From: Infirmifilum sp. NZ | Lineage (GTDB): Archaea > Thermoproteota > Thermoprotei > Thermofilales > Thermofilaceae | Direction: 5' to 3' | Assembly (NCBI RefSeq): GCF_022693705.1 | Contig: NZ_CP094288.1 | Location: 176,356-240,355, forward strand | Length of the DNA: 64,000 nt | Shown: piece by piece, positions 10,127 through 31,325 of the stretch | Position numbering within the stretch: the first letter of the stretch is position 1 | Layout of the letters: each line of letters starts with the position of its first letter | Position numbers and translations under genes: made by a program | Notes under the pieces: generated by a model | Told to the model about the DNA's origin: nothing | Database searches by the model: none | What the model saw: only the letters and a program-made list of their open reading frames with translations

Positions 10127-11527
10127 GTGAGCAGAGGGAATGGTGAGGGGAGCGGCGAGGGACTGGCCGAGGCCTACAGGGTGTGGAGGATCAAGACTAG
10201 CAATGAAGAGAGGCTGAGGCTTCAGCGGCTGTACGCGAGGCTGTCGAGCGCGGTCAGGGAGGCGTGCAGGAGCCTCGAGGAGAGGCACGGCGAGGCCTTC
10301 AGGGAGGAGCCTGAGAGGTTCAGCGAAGAGCTGATCGGGGAGGCTTCAAAGATTGCGGGGTTGCCAAAGAACCTCTTCTGGTACGCCACGGAGTGGCGAA
10401 ACATGGTCGCGGAGGCCAGGGGGAAGTCTAAGAGGCGGAGCAGGTTCATGCCTCCGCCGATGCCGCTACTGGTCAGGGTGGTTAACAGTGGCGAGAGGCT
10501 TCACGGCAACACCGCTGCTGTAGTGGTGCTTGACGCCTCTAGAGGCGAGCTCCGCGTTCCCAGTGTGAACCTCAGCGTAAGGCTGAGGCCATCGCTGGTC
10601 AAAGCGGTGCTAGAGGACGTACAGAGGTTTGGCGACGTTAAGCTGACCTTGCAGCTAACGGCGAGAGGTAGGCTGAGGCTAGTGGCGCACCGCAAGGTTA
10701 GGCGGGCGTGGTGGGACGGCAACAATAAGCTGGCCGTCATAGCGTTGGACGTGAACTCGAGCCACGGGCTCTACCTGATGGCCTTCGCCTTCGACAGCGA
10801 AGCCAGGCTGGTGGCTCAGCGCGTCTTCAAGCCGCCAAACGCCACGTTGCTGAGGCTCCTCGCCGCCTTGATGACTAGCTACTCCGAGGTTAAGAGCTGG
10901 AGTGAGACCGTAGAGAGGTTCAGGCAAGAGAGGGACATAAAAGAGCTGCGGAGAACGGGCTACGCTGTGGAGGAGGCGCTGCGGCTCGCTGAGAGGCTGA
11001 GGGCGAAGGTGAACCTGACCCCCGAGAGGGCTGAGCGCATAGCTAGTCAGGCCCTCAGGAAGGTGAGGAAGCTCAACGACGATTGGGTCAGAGGCGTGCT
11101 CAGGGAGGTTAGGAGCCTGGTTAGAAAGCTCAGGGACCAAGGCTACCTCGTCGTCATCGTAGCGGACGTGCCCCGGGCCGAGTCCCTCAGGGGCTCAGAG
11201 CTACAGAGGACGCTGCTCAGAGTGGCGAGCAGACTGGAGAACATGGCCTGGTACGAGGGCGCCAAGTGGTTCCAGCCGGAGAACAATGTCAGTGGCAAGC
11301 GGTGCCCCGTCTGCGGCTCGTGGGGCGTGGAGGTGAGGAAGCGCTACTACCGATGCCCTAAATGTGGCTTGGAGTGGACCAGGGACTGGGCCGCAGCGTT
11401 CAACGCCACAAAGCTCCTTCTCGGAAAAATCCTCAAAGCGGAGGAGCAACTCGAGGCGTTGCAGAGCTGGCTCAGCCAGCACCCCAGAGCCCCGACCCAC
11501 GGCACAAGAGACAGGCCAGTGCACTAG
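10127..11527 (+). CDS. tnpB: TnpB-like (IS605 OrfB/IS1341 family) RNA-guided nuclease homologue
   Basis: Member of the TnpB family (ancestor of Cas12), 466 residues, longer than the common length of about 400. RuvC motif I is seen as IALDVN (D208). The zinc ribbon is complete (C393-x2-C396 and C410-x2-C413, in CPVCG and YRCPKCG). RuvC motif III is RDWAAAFNAT (D420). Motif II, usually VVEDL with the catalytic Glu, reads IVADVP, placing A346 where Glu is expected. The protein may thus be a weak or dead nuclease, or use a shifted acid such as E352. GTG 10127 has a good GGAGGT site 7-12 nt upstream. No tnpA is nearby. A conserved RNA-like repeat follows within 220 nt. Confidence 0.85.
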   Translation: MSRGNGEGSGEGLAEAYRVWRIKTSNEERLRLQRLYARLSSAVREACRSLEERHGEAFREEPERFSEELIGEASKIAGLPKNLFWYATEWRNMVAEARGKSKRRSRFMPPPMPLLVRVVNSGERLHGNTAAVVVLDASRGELRVPSVNLSVRLRPSLVKAVLEDVQRFGDVKLTLQLTARGRLRLVAHRKVRRAWWDGNNKLAVIALDVNSSHGLYLMAFAFDSEARLVAQRVFKPPNATLLRLLAALMTSYSEVKSWSETVERFRQERDIKELRRTGYAVEEALRLAERLRAKVNLTPERAERIASQALRKVRKLNDDWVRGVLREVRSLVRKLRDQGYLVVIVADVPRAESLRGSELQRTLLRVASRLENMAWYEGAKWFQPENNVSGKRCPVCGSWGVEVRKRYYRCPKCGLEWTRDWAAAFNATKLLLGKILKAEEQLEALQSWLSQHPRAPTHGTRDRPVH

Positions 11528-25526: not shown

Positions 25527-25856
25527 ATGATAGTAACCACAACCCCCAGCATCCCGGGCTACAGGATCAAGTGGGTGTTGGGGGTCGTGACTGGCATGAG
25601 CGTTAGAACGAGGGGCTTTCTGGGCAGGATGGCGGCGGGGATAGAGGCGATTGTCGGGGGAGCCTCGAGCGCTTACGTGACCGAGCTGAAGAAGGCGAGA
25701 GATGAGGCGCTCAGCGACCTCATTAACTCTGCCAGGCAGATGGGGGCGAACGCCGTCGTGGGCCTAGACTTCGAGACCTCCGAGGTCCTTGAGGGCTTCA
25801 TCATCGTGACGGCTACGGGCACAGCCGTGGAGGTGGAGCCCGAGCAGGCGGGCTAG
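25527..25856 (+). CDS. YbjQ/UPF0145 heavy-metal-binding domain protein
   Basis: Protein of 109 residues with the family signatures VTTTPSIPGYRIKWVLGVVTG and SARQMGANAVVGLDFETSEV. Members form pentameric beta-alpha rings of unknown function sometimes called heavy-metal-binding. The start at ATG 25527 follows an AT-rich upstream region. Its end overlaps the convergent methyltransferase gene by 4 nt. Confidence 0.92.
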   Translation: MIVTTTPSIPGYRIKWVLGVVTGMSVRTRGFLGRMAAGIEAIVGGASSAYVTELKKARDEALSDLINSARQMGANAVVGLDFETSEVLEGFIIVTATGTAVEVEPEQAG

Positions 25857-27214
25857 AGGCCCAGACCGATCTCCGCCAGCTCCGCCTTAACGGAGCGGAT
25901 GACCTCGACCCACCCTGTACTGGGTGCGCCTGAGGCGGGGTTGTAGACCTCCCAGAAGGGCTTACCGTAGGAGGGGCTCCGCAGCTTCTCACCGTACCTC
26001 TTATAGAGCTCCTGCACGACGGCGCAGGCATCGCTCAGGCCAAGGCCCTGGGACGCCACCGCGGCGCCGAGCTCCGCCATGAGCTGCGCTTCCAGCCCCC
26101 CGCCGTTGGGGGCTGTTCCGTTCGCGGGAACCGGGCCCAGGAGGTGTAGGCCTGCCGCGGCTGCGGCCACGGTGTTGGCGGCCACCTCGTAGAGGTACTC
26201 CCTCGTGCCCAGCCCGAAGGCCGGCCACACGTCGGCCACCAGTGGTAGCTTCATGTGCTCGTTCGCCAGGCCAACCGCAACCTGCACCCAGATGCACTCC
26301 GCCGACGAGGTGGCCTTCTTGACGATGTGCGTGGGGTGGATCAGCACGTAGCCAGCCCTGTAGGCCGCGAGCGCCAGGATCGTCTCAGCCACGGAGACTA
26401 TCGCGGAACCCGCGGGGCCTCTTGCGAAGCCCCCGACGATCGGGTCGACCAGCGCCGCGCCGATCACCCCCTTCTCGAGGCCGACCTGCGCCTTGGTCAG
26501 CTGGGAGTAGTCCGTCTTCAGCTCGTTCAGCACGGGCAGGAGCTGCGCGTCCCCCTCGAGCAGGAGGCCAGCGGACATCGCCGCGAGGCTGGCGACGGAC
26601 GAGATGCTGCTCTCGCCGGCGAGGAGGTGCATCCCGGGCCTCCCGGAGTCCCTGAGCGCGCGGCGCAGGTGCAGCAGCTCCCTGACACCAGCCACGGCCT
26701 CGCTCGGCGCGCCAGCCTTGACCCTGACCCCCGACACCTCCTGTATGCTCCCGTGGTCCAGAGCGTCCACGAGCGGCTGCCTCGTGTAGGAGAGTGCCGT
26801 GGCGTAGAAGTACTCCTCGGGCACCGGCGTCCCAGCTAGGCCGCCGAACACGAAGGGCCTCCTCCTGTCGCCCGGGACCCTCGCCCACAGCAGCCTAGCG
26901 TCCAGCCCCCTGCCCAGCACCAGCTCGCGGCGCGCGCTGGCTAGGGCCTCCCGCAGCTCCTCCTCGGCGAACCTCGCGACCCTGCTCTCCTCCACCACGT
27001 AGAGCCCAACCTCAAGGGCGAGCTCGAAGCCCGCCTCGAACACCGACCTCCCGAGGCCCGCGTCGCCGGGCACGGGGCAGGAGGGGTCGTAGGCTACGCC
27101 GTGCTCCCTCTCCAGCTCGGCGACCCTCCTGGAGACCAGCTCGAGGTCGAACCTCCTCTGCTCGACGTACTCGCCGAGCCTCGCCCTCCCCTCGACCTGC
27201 AGGGGGGTCAGCAT
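25853..27214 (-). CDS. MtmB-family corrinoid methyltransferase homologue without pyrrolysine
   Basis: A TIM-barrel methyltransferase of about 453 residues that follows monomethylamine methyltransferase MtmB (about 458 residues) along its length: VFEAGFELALEVGLYV, VPGDRRRPFVFGG, the GRPGM segment, LNELKTD and the C-terminal YGKPFWEVYNPASG...PSTGW region. In MtmB the GRPGM segment continues to the amber-coded pyrrolysine; here that position is an ordinary leucine (L201, counting from GTG 27223; L198 from ATG 27214), and no in-frame TAG exists. The segments that in MtmB include E259, Q333 and Y335 also differ (GGFARGPAGS, ADVWP). It therefore probably methylates a corrinoid from another, unknown donor. 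ATG 27214 follows a GGTG site, 16 nt after the corrinoid gene. Confidence 0.8.
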   Translation of the reverse strand: MLTPLQVEGRARLGEYVEQRRFDLELVSRRVAELEREHGVAYDPSCPVPGDAGLGRSVFEAGFELALEVGLYVVEESRVARFAEEELREALASARRELVLGRGLDARLLWARVPGDRRRPFVFGGLAGTPVPEEYFYATALSYTRQPLVDALDHGSIQEVSGVRVKAGAPSEAVAGVRELLHLRRALRDSGRPGMHLLAGESSISSVASLAAMSAGLLLEGDAQLLPVLNELKTDYSQLTKAQVGLEKGVIGAALVDPIVGGFARGPAGSAIVSVAETILALAAYRAGYVLIHPTHIVKKATSSAECIWVQVAVGLANEHMKLPLVADVWPAFGLGTREYLYEVAANTVAAAAAGLHLLGPVPANGTAPNGGGLEAQLMAELGAAVASQGLGLSDACAVVQELYKRYGEKLRSPSYGKPFWEVYNPASGAPSTGWVEVIRSVKAELAEIGLGL

Positions 27215-27230
27215 GCGACGCACCTCTCGC

Positions 27231-27884
27231 TCAATCCCTGCCCAGCAGCTTCTTGCACTTCTCTACCGCCTCGACTGCGTCCCTGGCGTAGGCGTCGGCC
27301 CCGATCTCCCTGGCGAACTCCTCTGTCACCGGGGCGCCGCCGACGATCACCTTCACCTTGTCCCTCAAGCCCGCCGCCCTCAGCGCGTCGATGACGTTCC
27401 TCATCTCCAGCATCGTCGTCGTGAGCAGCGCGCTCATCCCCAGGATGTCTGGCCTGTAGGCCCTCACGGCCTCGACGAACTTCTCAGGCGGCACGTCGAC
27501 CCCCAGGTCCACCACCTCGAACCCGTTCACCCTCAGCATCACCGCCACCAGGTTCTTCCCGATGTCGTGTATGTCCCCGCGGACCGTGCCTATCACGACC
27601 CTCCCCCTGCCGGAGGACTGCCTCGAGGCCTCGAGAAGCGGCAGAAGCAACTCCCCCATCACGCCGTTGAAGATGTCCGCGGCAGCTATGAGCTCGGGCA
27701 GAAAGTACTCGCCCCGCTCGAACCTCTCCCCAACCTCCCACATGCCGGGCCTCAAGCCCTCCTCGACCACTGCAAGCGGGCTACAGCCTGCTCTCAGAGC
27801 CTCCTCTACGAGCTTGCGCGTCAGCTCGCCGTCCAGCCCCGCGACGGCCCTACGAACCCTGTTTAACAGATCCTTGCAGTCCAC
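27231..27884 (-). CDS. MtmC/MtbC-type corrinoid (B12-binding) methyl carrier protein
   Basis: Methyl carrier of 217 residues. The N-terminal four-helix cap (to about residue 90) with PGMWEVGERFERGEYFLPEL is followed by the Rossmann B12 domain. The cobalt-ligand motif is GDIHDIGKN with H106; SALLTTTM and VGGAPV complete the B12 site. It is the first gene of a two-gene operon with the MtmB-like methyltransferase and gives it the expected partner. A GCTTAAAG box about 26 nt before ATG 27884 suggests a leaderless message. A second methyltransferase (MtbA/MtrH type) or a RamA reactivator is not in the window. Confidence 0.93.
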   Translation of the reverse strand: MDCKDLLNRVRRAVAGLDGELTRKLVEEALRAGCSPLAVVEEGLRPGMWEVGERFERGEYFLPELIAAADIFNGVMGELLLPLLEASRQSSGRGRVVIGTVRGDIHDIGKNLVAVMLRVNGFEVVDLGVDVPPEKFVEAVRAYRPDILGMSALLTTTMLEMRNVIDALRAAGLRDKVKVIVGGAPVTEEFAREIGADAYARDAVEAVEKCKKLLGRD

Positions 27885-27918: not shown

Positions 27919-28032
27919 TTATCTCATCCGTGAAAAATGAAAACCCTTCTCAAGAAGGCCCACCGCCCCTAGAGCGACGACCAGAGCCCAGGCCTCTAGG
28001 AAGTAGCGGAGCACGCTCGCATCAATGAACAT
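27919..28032 (-). pseudogene. Truncated VapC (PIN toxin), N-terminal stub
   Basis: ATG at 28032 overlaps the end of the AbrB-like antitoxin gene, as in an intact vapBC pair, and begins MFIDASVLRYFLEA, the first strand and helix of a PIN domain with its first catalytic Asp. After about 14 codons the likeness ends and the frame stops at 27919. The rest of the domain is absent, and the methyltransferase promoter lies at the break. The toxin is dead. Confidence 0.6.
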
Positions 28033-28261
28033 CTTCTTCGAGCACTCTCTCCGTCTCACGAACCACCGCTTCATCTATCTGCTCAGCCGTGTCGTAGGCG
28101 GCTGGTTTAGCGGCCCCGTAGTGTTCTCCAACCTTTACGGGCACGAGCACAATCCGCTCACCCTCAACCCTGACTATGAAGCGCTTAAAGGGTACCGCAC
28201 GGCGCACACTGGCTGGAAGGTAGACCCGACCCTCGCTGTCGACTTCAACCACTATTGCCAC
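28022..28261 (-). CDS. AbrB/SpoVT-type antitoxin, orphaned
   Basis: Swapped-hairpin DNA-binding domain of about 50 residues (VVEVDSEGRVYLPASVRRAV...VEGERIVLVPV) and an acidic tail (AEQIDEAVVRETERVLEED) that would bind a toxin. GTG 28261 is chosen because a GCTTAATGG box is centred about 27 nt upstream; the longer frame adds 29 codons without family likeness. The partner toxin after it is only a stub, so this antitoxin is an orphan. Confidence 0.75.
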   Translation of the reverse strand: MAIVVEVDSEGRVYLPASVRRAVPFKRFIVRVEGERIVLVPVKVGEHYGAAKPAAYDTAEQIDEAVVRETERVLEEDVH

Positions 28262-28340
28262 GCTTATGCTGCGCTTTTGGCAGACCATTAAGCTTTCTGT
28301 AGCATCAGACGCTACAGTACTCCTAGAAGACTTAGTCAGT

Positions 28341-28652
28341 TCACTCAAGTATCAGGACGACTCGCTCCGGCGCGAAGCGCCACTCCTCGCCCTCGCGCAG
28401 CAGCCTGTACTCGACCACCGCACCGTCCTCCAGCTCCTCCACCGAGACGATGCCGGCCCTGAAGCCCCTCCCGGCAAGCAGGTAGGCGAAGTCCTCGAAG
28501 TAGTCGTAGAAGCCGCACGTCACGCAGAAGCTCCCCCTAAACTCAACCGCGAACCTACCCTCCTCAACCCAGAGGACCCTTGCCCTGCCCTCAGCCCCGT
28601 GGTACCTGTTGAACTCCTCCACAGCCTCCCTCAAAGCCTCCTCCAAACTCAC
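28341..28652 (-). CDS. Uncharacterised small protein
   Basis: About 103 residues with an N-terminal helix (LEEALREAVEEFNRYHG), beta strands (ARVLWVEEGRFAVEFRG), a CVTCGFYDYFEDFAYLLAGR segment with a C-x2-C pair, and C-terminal strands. GTG 28652 is chosen since a CTTATATTC box lies 26 nt upstream (28675-28682); a start at 28670 would precede the likely transcription start. No family is recognised; the two-cysteine motif alone does not prove metal binding. Confidence 0.6.
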   Translation of the reverse strand: MSLEEALREAVEEFNRYHGAEGRARVLWVEEGRFAVEFRGSFCVTCGFYDYFEDFAYLLAGRGFRAGIVSVEELEDGAVVEYRLLREGEEWRFAPERVVLILE

Positions 28653-28697
28653 AGCCACAGGAATAAACACTCAGAATATAAGGTTGACGCTCGGGGG

Positions 28698-30791
28698 CTA
28701 GCCGTAGGTGTAGACGTCTCCGCCGACGATGTCTGCTGGCCCCAGGGTGGCTGCGGTGGTGCCGCTGGGGTCGAGGACCTCGAGGATTGCGTTCCTGACT
28801 ATGAAGGCGTAGTCCTTCGAGGGGACCTCTGAGAGCCACAGCGGTATCGATGCCACGCCGCCCGCCGCTTTGGCGCTCGAGACCACAGTGGAGCCCACCC
28901 TCACCCTCGCCGTCCAGCCGTCCGGTAGGCCCGTCACGTTCACGAACCAGGGCCTAGCGTCCACCGAGACGACAAGGTTGTCGAACCTGACGGTGAGCGC
29001 CCCGCTGACCCAGTAGGCGCCCAGCCCTGGGTACACGGGATGAACGCTCTTGTCTCCGTCTGACACCTTGCGCGAGCCGTTGCTCCAGAGCTCGATGGCG
29101 TCGCTATCGCTGTCGTAGAAGCCTACCAGGTCGTACCAGACCCCGCTCTGGAAGGAGCCGTGCTCGCTGCTTATGGGGTGCCAGTTTCCGACGAAGCGGT
29201 ATATGCTGTAGTAGCCTGAGGAGTCGAGGGACCACTCGTAGAACTTCTTGTAGTCGCTCTCTCCGTACACTACTCCTGCCCGGCCGGAGCCTCCGGTGAA
29301 GCTCACCAGGGCCGCCACGTACACCTTCCCCGTCAGCTGCTGGGAGGTGTAAGTTAGCAGGCACTCTCCATCGTAGCTGCTGGGGTTGCTGCTCGCGGTG
29401 ACGTAGAGGAGCTTGTCTGTGCTGTCGTGCTGCCAGCTGCAGGAGAGGGGTGTGAGATTTGAGTTGATGGGGTCGGCGTCGAAGGTGTCGTAGTACACGG
29501 CCGCCCTTCTTGGGCCCGCGAGCAGGGGTTGCGTGACGGTGACTATCATGCTCCGGCTGTCGTCGTAGCTGTTCGTGGCTAGGTTGAGCACGGCTATTGT
29601 CCAGGTGTAGGTGCTGGGGGTTGTGGGGAGTGTTACCTGTAGCTGTGCCTGTGCCTGCGAGCCGGGTGGTATGGTTAGTGCTGTGGAGTTCACTAGGCCT
29701 CCGCTGCTGTCCCGCACCTCCACCCTAGCGTCGCCCTGCAGGTCCCCGGTGTTCGCGACAGTGACGCTGACGAGGGCCTTCGAGCCCGGTGGGCCTGAGA
29801 CGCTGCCAGTGCTGCTCGCTATCGCGAAGCGCGCCGGCTGAAGGGCTGTGACGGCGATTGCCTTGGAGTCGTCGTAGCTGCCTGTGGCTGGGTTCTTGAC
29901 CTTGAGTGTCCAGGTGTATGTGCCCCTCGCCGCGGGGAGCGTGACGGCGAGGCTGGCGGTCTGGGGCGCGGCGGGGGGTACTGAGAGCTGGGTCGCGTTG
30001 ACGAGGTTGCTGTTGTGGTCGTAGACCTCCACCACCGCCACGCCCGCCTGCTGGCCGGTGTTGTTCACCTTAACCACCAGAAACTGCCTCGAGCCCACCG
30101 CGCCGCTGATGCTTGAGTTGTAGCTGAGGATCGAGAAGCGGGGCGGCTGGAGGGGCTGGAACACAGCGGTCAGGTTAACCACCCCCGCAACCACCACCTC
30201 CACCACGGGGCTAGTGGAGAGGGCCGAGCCGTTCAGAAGCCACCCGGAGAAAGCGTAGCCGGCAGCCGGCGAAGCGGAGACACGCACCCTGCTACCAGCA
30301 GGGTACACGTACCTGCCGGGAGCAGGATCCGTGGAGCCAGAGCCAGGCGGGTACACGTATACCAGTAGGGTTGCGTAAGCTATGCCGCCGGCGCCGGTGT
30401 ACATGAAGCTGAACCCCGGGGACACCACCCCGCTGGCCCCGGCGACCGTTACAGTGTACCTCTCGCCAGGCTTGAGGCTTGCCAAATCTAGTCGCACGAG
30501 CACGAGCTGCCCGGGCTGCGCGGTGAGGTTGAGGCCGCCTGCGTGCCATACGAGCCTGCCTGAGCTGTCGTAGACGTAGACCGCGTCCAAAACCTCCCTC
30601 GTTTCGCCGATGTTCCTGACGTAGAGCACTAGCCCGCCCTCGAAGCCGACACCCTCCACCTTAAGGAGGGGGCGCGCACCACTAACGGAGGGCCTGAAGC
30701 CCGAGATGAACAGGTAGGCTAGAACCCCCGCTGCCACCGCGACCAGTACGAGGAGCAGGGACGCTAAGACCGGCGATACTCCCCTCTCCAT
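28698..30791 (-). CDS. Large secreted protein with type IV pilin-like signal and CARDB-type domains
   Basis: The N-terminus MERGVSPVLASLLLVLVAVA is a class III (pilin-type) signal: a short basic leader and a hydrophobic helix. A VSPV-type archaeal pilin motif is present. After it come a pilin-like beta segment, a repeat-like domain (about 170-210, YAFSGWLLNGS, InlB/Big-type), two CARDB-like beta domains (about 220-320 and 325-425) and a C-terminal concanavalin-like domain (about 430-620, YYDTFDADPIN...RFDNLVVS). It is probably an extracellular adhesin or filament-associated binding protein. ATG 30791 is 24-26 nt after a CTAAATATT box. It follows a normal-size pilin gene. Confidence 0.8.
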   Translation of the reverse strand: MERGVSPVLASLLLVLVAVAAGVLAYLFISGFRPSVSGARPLLKVEGVGFEGGLVLYVRNIGETREVLDAVYVYDSSGRLVWHAGGLNLTAQPGQLVLVRLDLASLKPGERYTVTVAGASGVVSPGFSFMYTGAGGIAYATLLVYVYPPGSGSTDPAPGRYVYPAGSRVRVSASPAAGYAFSGWLLNGSALSTSPVVEVVVAGVVNLTAVFQPLQPPRFSILSYNSSISGAVGSRQFLVVKVNNTGQQAGVAVVEVYDHNSNLVNATQLSVPPAAPQTASLAVTLPAARGTYTWTLKVKNPATGSYDDSKAIAVTALQPARFAIASSTGSVSGPPGSKALVSVTVANTGDLQGDARVEVRDSSGGLVNSTALTIPPGSQAQAQLQVTLPTTPSTYTWTIAVLNLATNSYDDSRSMIVTVTQPLLAGPRRAAVYYDTFDADPINSNLTPLSCSWQHDSTDKLLYVTASSNPSSYDGECLLTYTSQQLTGKVYVAALVSFTGGSGRAGVVYGESDYKKFYEWSLDSSGYYSIYRFVGNWHPISSEHGSFQSGVWYDLVGFYDSDSDAIELWSNGSRKVSDGDKSVHPVYPGLGAYWVSGALTVRFDNLVVSVDARPWFVNVTGLPDGWTARVRVGSTVVSSAKAAGGVASIPLWLSEVPSKDYAFIVRNAILEVLDPSGTTAATLGPADIVGGDVYTYG

Positions 30792-30800
30792 ACCCACAGG

Positions 30801-30837: not shown

Positions 30838-31278
30838 TTAAGTCCTGTACGTCCAGGTGTAGGTTGCCTCCGTGCCCTTAGTTGTCACAACCTTCACGGT
30901 GTACGTCTTACCAGACTGCAGGCCAGCAGACGGCATGTTACTGGCGAGGATTTGAACGCGATTCACACCGCCTGGAGTGAGGGTTACGTCAGTGACTGAT
31001 TGATTAGCGATGACGGTGCCGCTGCTGGCGTCAATAAGGTACACGGCTGAAATGTCCACAGCAACATCTCCAATGTTCCTGACGTACACATCGAGGTTGC
31101 CGTTGCTGTAGTTTACAGCCTCGATCTTTATCCTCTCTTGGAGCTGCTGGGCGCTGGCTTGCTGGGTGAGTGTGCCCTGGTAGCCGATGATCCAGATGTA
31201 TGCTAGCACGGCGGCTGCGACGGCTATGACGATGAGCAGGAGTGTCGCGATAACCGGCGATACTGCTTGCCGCCTCAT
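30838..31278 (-). CDS. Archaeal type IV pilin-like protein
   Basis: Protein of 146 residues with an MRRQAVSPVIATLLLIVIAV N-terminus, the archaeal pilin/DUF1628 signal (basic residues, VSPV, long hydrophobic helix), then a QQLQERIKIEA linker and a beta domain. It would be processed by a PibD/EppA-type peptidase and assembled into a surface filament or membrane complex. ATG 31278 is chosen because a TTTTATAAAATT box is 26-30 nt upstream. It is related in its N-terminus to the larger protein encoded next. Confidence 0.88.
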   Translation of the reverse strand: MRRQAVSPVIATLLLIVIAVAAAVLAYIWIIGYQGTLTQQASAQQLQERIKIEAVNYSNGNLDVYVRNIGDVAVDISAVYLIDASSGTVIANQSVTDVTLTPGGVNRVQILASNMPSAGLQSGKTYTVKVVTTKGTEATYTWTYRT

Positions 31279-31325
31279 CGGTAGGTACAACTGCATGCCA
31301 ATTTTATAAAATTAACGTTAAAAAT

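Follow-up and report, generated by a model that had tools for sequence, protein, structure and literature searches.

Why does Thermofilum, a heat-loving archaeon that to our knowledge is not a methane producer, encode a relative of the monomethylamine methyltransferase MtmB, and to what acceptor would such an enzyme pass a methyl group? The gene lies in a window (here, the whole stretch of DNA that was analysed) of 64,000 nucleotides. An earlier note, made from the letters of this window, had described it as an MtmB-family methyltransferase with leucine in place of pyrrolysine (Pyl), encoded beside a corrinoid protein and possibly acting on a new methyl donor. The features of the locus are the following:

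25853..27223, minus strand: Pyl-free MtmB-family methyltransferase, 456 amino acids from GTG 27223 (PF05369, PDB 1l2q, tree, dN/dS).
26621..26623, minus strand: codon CTC for Leu201, aligned with Pyl202 of M. barkeri MtmB1 (alignments, codon reading).
27231..27884, minus strand: MtmC-like corrinoid protein, the upstream partner (PF02310 and PF02607, TIGR02370, motifs, adjacency).
28341..28670, minus strand: small conserved neighbour of about 105 amino acids with a SFCVTCGFYDYFEDF motif (comparison of loci).

The first of these genes encodes a full-length MtmB homologue, and the statements made here on its family and active site are secure. The ORF matches the MtmB profile PF05369 with 246.3 bits (E 7.5e-73; gathering cut-off 25 bits) over positions 9-450 of 450, and its residues 14-456 match the M. 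barkeri MtmB1 structures PDB 1l2q and 1nth (E 2e-50). The profile and structure alignments with Methanosarcina MtmB that the earlier note had called for thus agree with its placement of the protein in this family over the whole length, and put the Pyl column at L201. That number is correct when counted from GTG 27223, but ATG 27214 is the likelier start because GAGAGGTG just upstream would be its ribosome site, in which case the leucine may be residue 198. The gene's own stop codon is TAG, which ends 25 of the 54 long ORFs in the window, this one included. A search of plasmids for MtmB gave no match. AlphaFold2, run from three sequences, returned a mean pLDDT of only 35, and for this reason neither a pocket model nor a fold search was used.

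The GRPGM segment is found at residues 194-198, and the sense codon for leucine at the Pyl202 column that the earlier note had read after it is indeed there. The same note had named E259, Q333 and Y335 as altered; they correspond to L258, D331 and W333, and two further residues, E229 and M261, are replaced by L228 and D260. The features of a Pyl-dependent MtmB are therefore missing: the 202 column holds neither TAG nor Pyl, and E229, E259, Q333 and Y335 have given way to L, L, D and W. An identical pocket (Leu-Leu-Leu-Asp-Asp-Trp) is present in all 13 Thermofilaceae MtmB-like sequences, and 17 sequences of families f17 and f15 have Leu or Ile followed by Leu, Leu, Asp, Asp and Trp. The Pyl-MtmBs of G175 and G240, the only two in the phylum sample, retain E, E, Q and Y. 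Since Pyl and its neighbours have all changed, and to the same set across Thermofilaceae, the alignments indicate that the active site is rebuilt as a whole. These observations bear on whether the protein is still a monomethylamine methyltransferase that works without Pyl. Its family and the arrangement with its partner are those of MtmB/MtmC, and the Pyl-free MtmB homologue MtqB retains slight methylamine activity (PMC13044021), but the replacement of E229, E259, Q333 and Y335 around Pyl is complete and fixed, as expected for a different substrate, and we regard this reading as improbable.

Loss of the catalytic Pyl and of its polar neighbours could also mean that the protein is a catalytically inactive relic, retained by chance or for a structural role. 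A comparison with the G159 copy gives a dN/dS of 0.10 at a dS of 1.4, so the protein is under purifying selection and is not decaying; an alternative pocket is fixed, and the operon with its intact corrinoid protein is conserved across the genus. A relic is accordingly the least probable of the explanations weighed here, with very little chance of being right.

Among 398 sampled Thermoproteota genomes, PF05369 is present in 47, only two of which (G175 and G240, both of another family) have an in-frame TAG in MtmB, and the same two are the only ones with PylS above the cut-off among the 26 Thermoproteota genomes searched. The close relatives thus carry no TAG at this position. A tree of the family, of the kind suggested in the earlier note, separates Thermofilaceae from the Pyl clade: all 13 of their sequences lie on one branch (support 100/100), sister to the f17-A/f15-A clade of 17 sequences (100/100) and apart from the Pyl-MtmBs.

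Several other arrangements were observed in the phylum. At one locus of G175 (L067), two MtmBs follow each other end to end on a single contig close to PylS: one contains Pyl, with its in-frame TAG, and the other is Pyl-free and long-branched. In family f17 (L047-L049, L052, L058, L060, L061, L063, L069), tandem MtmB paralogues A and B stand behind a single MtmC and face a PnrA/BMP-type ABC transporter; in paralogue B the Pyl site carries Asn and its loop is shortened (GRPGMHINDV). Such a transporter also adjoins MtmB in families f22 and f15. In f22 (L050, L053, L054, L059, L066), MtmC, MtmB and a homologue of the methanol methyltransferase MtaB form one run, in which MtmB has His at the Pyl column and which has RACo and the BMP transporter alongside.

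The corrinoid partner, whose integrity the earlier note had asserted, lies upstream of the MtmB-like gene across a gap of 7 nt. It scores 216.5 bits against TIGR02370 (cut-off 215.3), which places it among the MtxC corrinoid proteins, and has the DIHDIG, SAL and GG motifs in the expected order at 104, 151 and 182. MtmB and MtmC adjoin in six genomes of the Thermofilum genus, and MtmB occurs without an adjoining MtmC in some Thermofilaceae. At three loci of other Thermofilaceae genera that lack MtmC beside MtmB (L043, L044, L046), a conserved 198-aa gene and then a galactarate/altronate dehydratase-like gene follow downstream. In the tree, Thermofilum MtmC groups with corrinoid proteins linked to core methionine synthase (Mes), URO-D or RACo and not with other MtmB-linked MtmCs; a single MtmC clade is not rejected by the AU test (p 0.21), and the grouping is only a hint of a partner swap in Thermofilum.

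Near MtmC, the loci of the window, G177, G159, G072 and G111 share the small protein (28341-28670, minus strand) with its invariant motif, for which a Pfam search returned no family; it is a possible accessory protein. Between it and MtmC (27950-28348), an antitoxin-like short gene and an apparent shortened PIN-toxin remnant were seen by eye. Elsewhere in the window, 30838-31296 and 28698-30797 encode proteins with archaeal type IV pilin-like signals, with weak Pfam matches for the smaller and a repeat domain of surface proteins in the larger. Additionally, 10127-11527 encodes a protein of 466 residues whose nuclease domain is Cas12f1-like/TnpB; it is probably the TnpB of an insertion sequence.

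The next question, more informative and not reached by the earlier note, is where a methyl group taken up by MtmC could go. The window's own genome is complete (1.83 Mb), and searches of the kind proposed in the earlier note gave no PylS above the cut-off (best 21 bits, cut-off 178), one RACo-type corrinoid reductive activase (C1:1446992, the protein spanning C1:~1445876-1447747), and no match to MtrH or to URO-D, the family of the MtaA/MtbA type acceptors. MTHFR likewise had no match in this genome. RACo is present in 47 of 47 genomes with MtmB versus 85 of 351 without it, as raw counts that ignore common descent. A second pair, a corrinoid protein (MttC) beside a Pyl-free MttB, is encoded at C1:~492070-494150, and MtmC and MttC are 52% identical.

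The presence of two MtxB/MtxC pairs, with no dedicated methyl acceptor near the MtmB-like gene, would suit a reaction in the opposite direction, in which the MtmB-like protein uses methyl-corrinoid made by MttB/MttC to methylate a metabolite; corrinoid methyl transfers are in principle reversible. However, we know of no precedent for this in the MtmB family, and the adjoining MtmC implies a methyl loading or unloading site of its own, so that we consider it unlikely.

A candidate acceptor is provided by a divergent MetE-core protein in the same genome (C1:528708-529715), which keeps Ser27, Asp173, His214, Cys216, Glu239 and Cys302, which in core methionine synthases bind homocysteine and zinc. 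All six ligands are found in 24 of 25 aligned Mes homologues, G353 having no last Cys; a protein of f17, outside this count, differs. The C1 protein reaches 30 bits against PF01717 (cut-off 21), and a sequence search of solved structures revealed no relative. Because it is far from characterised families, with 63.3 bits against NF002119 (PRK00957) where the cut-off of this equivalog is 258, its methionine synthase activity is predicted from the ligands. All seven genomes of the genus encode a core methionine synthase, at >500 bits. Mes at 100 bits or more is found in 72 genomes, 61 of which also have RACo and 56 of which are without MtmB, so it is not a dedicated partner of MtmB.

In other Thermoproteota, relatives of Mes are clustered with MtxC and usually RACo, together with MttB, URO-D or MtrH (L169-L179):

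L169 (G373) and L173 (G357), with RACo, and L178 (G310), without RACo: Mes, MtxC and Pyl-free MttB.
L172 (G365): Mes, MtxC, RACo and a URO-D protein.
L170, L171 and L174-L177 (G381, G044 and others), with RACo, and L179, without RACo: Mes, MtxC and MtrH.

The link between Mes and RACo comes from a partly selected sample, 6 of the 20 loci having been picked for a known nearby RACo; in seven of the remaining 14 loci, four of them from f15, MtxC, MtrH or MttB adjoins Mes. As judged from gene order, these clusters would make methionine through a modular corrinoid system in which the source of the methyl group can be exchanged. Identity to Thermofilum's own MttB is 60-61% for the MttBs of the G310/L178 and G357/L173 clusters and 47% for that of G373/L169, and in the MtxC tree G310, G357 and Thermofilum MttC form a clade (100/100) that L169 joins at 98/93. 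Because the MttBs and MtxCs clustered with Mes are so closely related to those of Thermofilum, a methionine route for the MttB/MttC pair is well supported at the level of sequence. In none of the loci examined does MtmB stand directly beside a methionine synthase, whose direct neighbours are MttB, URO-D and MtrH. For MtmB/MtmC, we infer the same route by analogy, because MtmC and MttC are similar and no other acceptor was recognised.

We therefore propose, with a probability of about 0.5, a corrinoid relay in which a methyl group from a donor, probably a quaternary amine, would pass through MtmB/MtmC to homocysteine. The ligand of the MtmB-like protein would be a small methylated compound, probably a quaternary ammonium because the pocket is hydrophobic with a Trp and two Asp, and it would be placed so that Co(I) of MtmC can attack its methyl group. 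The methyl-Co(III)-MtmC so formed would then hand the methyl to homocysteine on the core methionine synthase to give methionine, RACo would rescue oxidised Co(II), and MttB/MttC would supply the same acceptor as a second pair. The whole would amount to a counterpart of betaine-homocysteine methyltransferase that is built from several proteins and works through a corrinoid, with a role in methionine regeneration and not in energy. Homocysteine as the acceptor is a good inference, with even chances of being correct, and the identity of the donor is a guess.

Alternatively, the enzyme could demethylate a quaternary amine or a similar compound by the same chemistry but for catabolism, with the methyl group passing to some other, unrecognised acceptor, for instance a divergent methyltransferase acting on a pterin or a thiol. 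In most of the catabolic MtxB/MtxC systems that have been characterised, a second methyltransferase delivers the methyl group to a pterin or to CoM. URO-D proteins are abundant in Thermofilaceae outside the genus (8-13 copies in most), and a URO-D gene adjoins a corrinoid protein in two genomes of the genus (G072, G171). Nevertheless, the lack of MtrH, URO-D and MTHFR matches in the own genome and the occurrence of core methionine synthase throughout the genus count against such an acceptor, which we hold to be a real if minority possibility, at perhaps one chance in four.

Returning to the relay to homocysteine, a bolder version is that the clade takes a methyl donor used by no characterised MtxB and feeds it into methionine. 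One candidate would be nucleosides or bases that are methylated and charged and come from the turnover of RNA, by which hyperthermophiles would return the methyl groups of RNA to methionine. This is a long shot, prompted by the sister clade (f17-A, f15-A), whose genes adjoin those of a PnrA/BMP-type ABC importer; the importers known from this family transport nucleosides. In the own complete genome no BMP protein was found. A BMP transporter was consequently rejected as part of the window's MtmB system, and nucleosides as the donor of this MtmB are speculation.

What is new and testable in this work is the proposal that an archaeon lacking recognised methyl-folate enzymes makes methionine by a corrinoid route. 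If true, it would account for methionine regeneration in archaea that lack these enzymes, join methylotrophy enzymes of methanogens to the amino-acid metabolism of non-methanogens, and provide core methionine synthases, whose donors are otherwise only predicted, with a donor system fed by MttB and MtmB. The own genome makes a clean test case: it is small and complete, encodes a single MtmB-like protein and a single corrinoid activase, and offers few candidates for the acceptor.

Pyl-free relatives of these enzymes have been noted before. The earlier note knew of no prior description, but a 2010 review mentioned rare MtmB homologues without Pyl, observed that Pyl-free relatives have hydrophobic residues in its place and recorded a Pyl-free homologue of the trimethylamine methyltransferase MttB in Thermofilum (PMC2933860); beyond it, the literature outside subscription journals yielded nothing on MtmB in Thermofilum. 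In 2026, MtqB became the first such protein with a function, a non-Pyl MtmB that demethylates tetramethylammonium and choline, and a tree of 1,061 MtmBs with and without Pyl was presented in which the remaining non-Pyl enzymes are without known function (PMC13044021); most of this tree is functionally blank, one non-Pyl member having been assayed. The idea of a Pyl-free MtmB relative with a new methyl donor is, because of this precedent, less novel than the earlier note supposed: family, site and partner hold, and the new donor is only plausible. Pyl-free MtmB is already known as a kind, and the Thermofilum branch represents another lineage, one found outside the methanogens.

Compared with MtmB of Methanosarcina (PDB 1NTH/1L2Q), the Thermofilum protein shares full-length homology, the GRPGM segment and a corrinoid partner, but has no Pyl, has Leu, Leu, Asp and Trp for E229, E259, Q333 and Y335, and belongs to a separate clade in an organism without PylS. 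MtqB/MtqC of Methanococcoides methylutens Q3c likewise combines a Pyl-free MtmB homologue with a corrinoid protein and a RamA-type activase, whereas MtqB acts in a methanogen, where the methyl group reaches CoM via MtqA (PMC13044021). The MtqB clade is marked by a conserved Met-Cys and aromatic pocket. In MtgBCD of marine bacteria, one corrinoid protein ties demethylation of glycine betaine, a quaternary amine, to methionine synthesis, as would be the case here (PMC12478193); that system employs a split MetH-like synthase and the betaine enzyme MtgB of the MttB family, in contrast to the MtmB-like donor enzyme and putative core MetE-type acceptor of Thermofilum. Finally, MesA, MesB and MesC also consist of the MetE catalytic core only, with zinc and homocysteine ligands, and are thought to take methyl groups from corrinoid proteins, with MtrA or CoFeSP proposed as donors (PMC7857596). 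To these enzymes the Thermofilum protein is only distantly related, and its family differs in being found with MttB, URO-D or MtrH together with MtxC and RACo.
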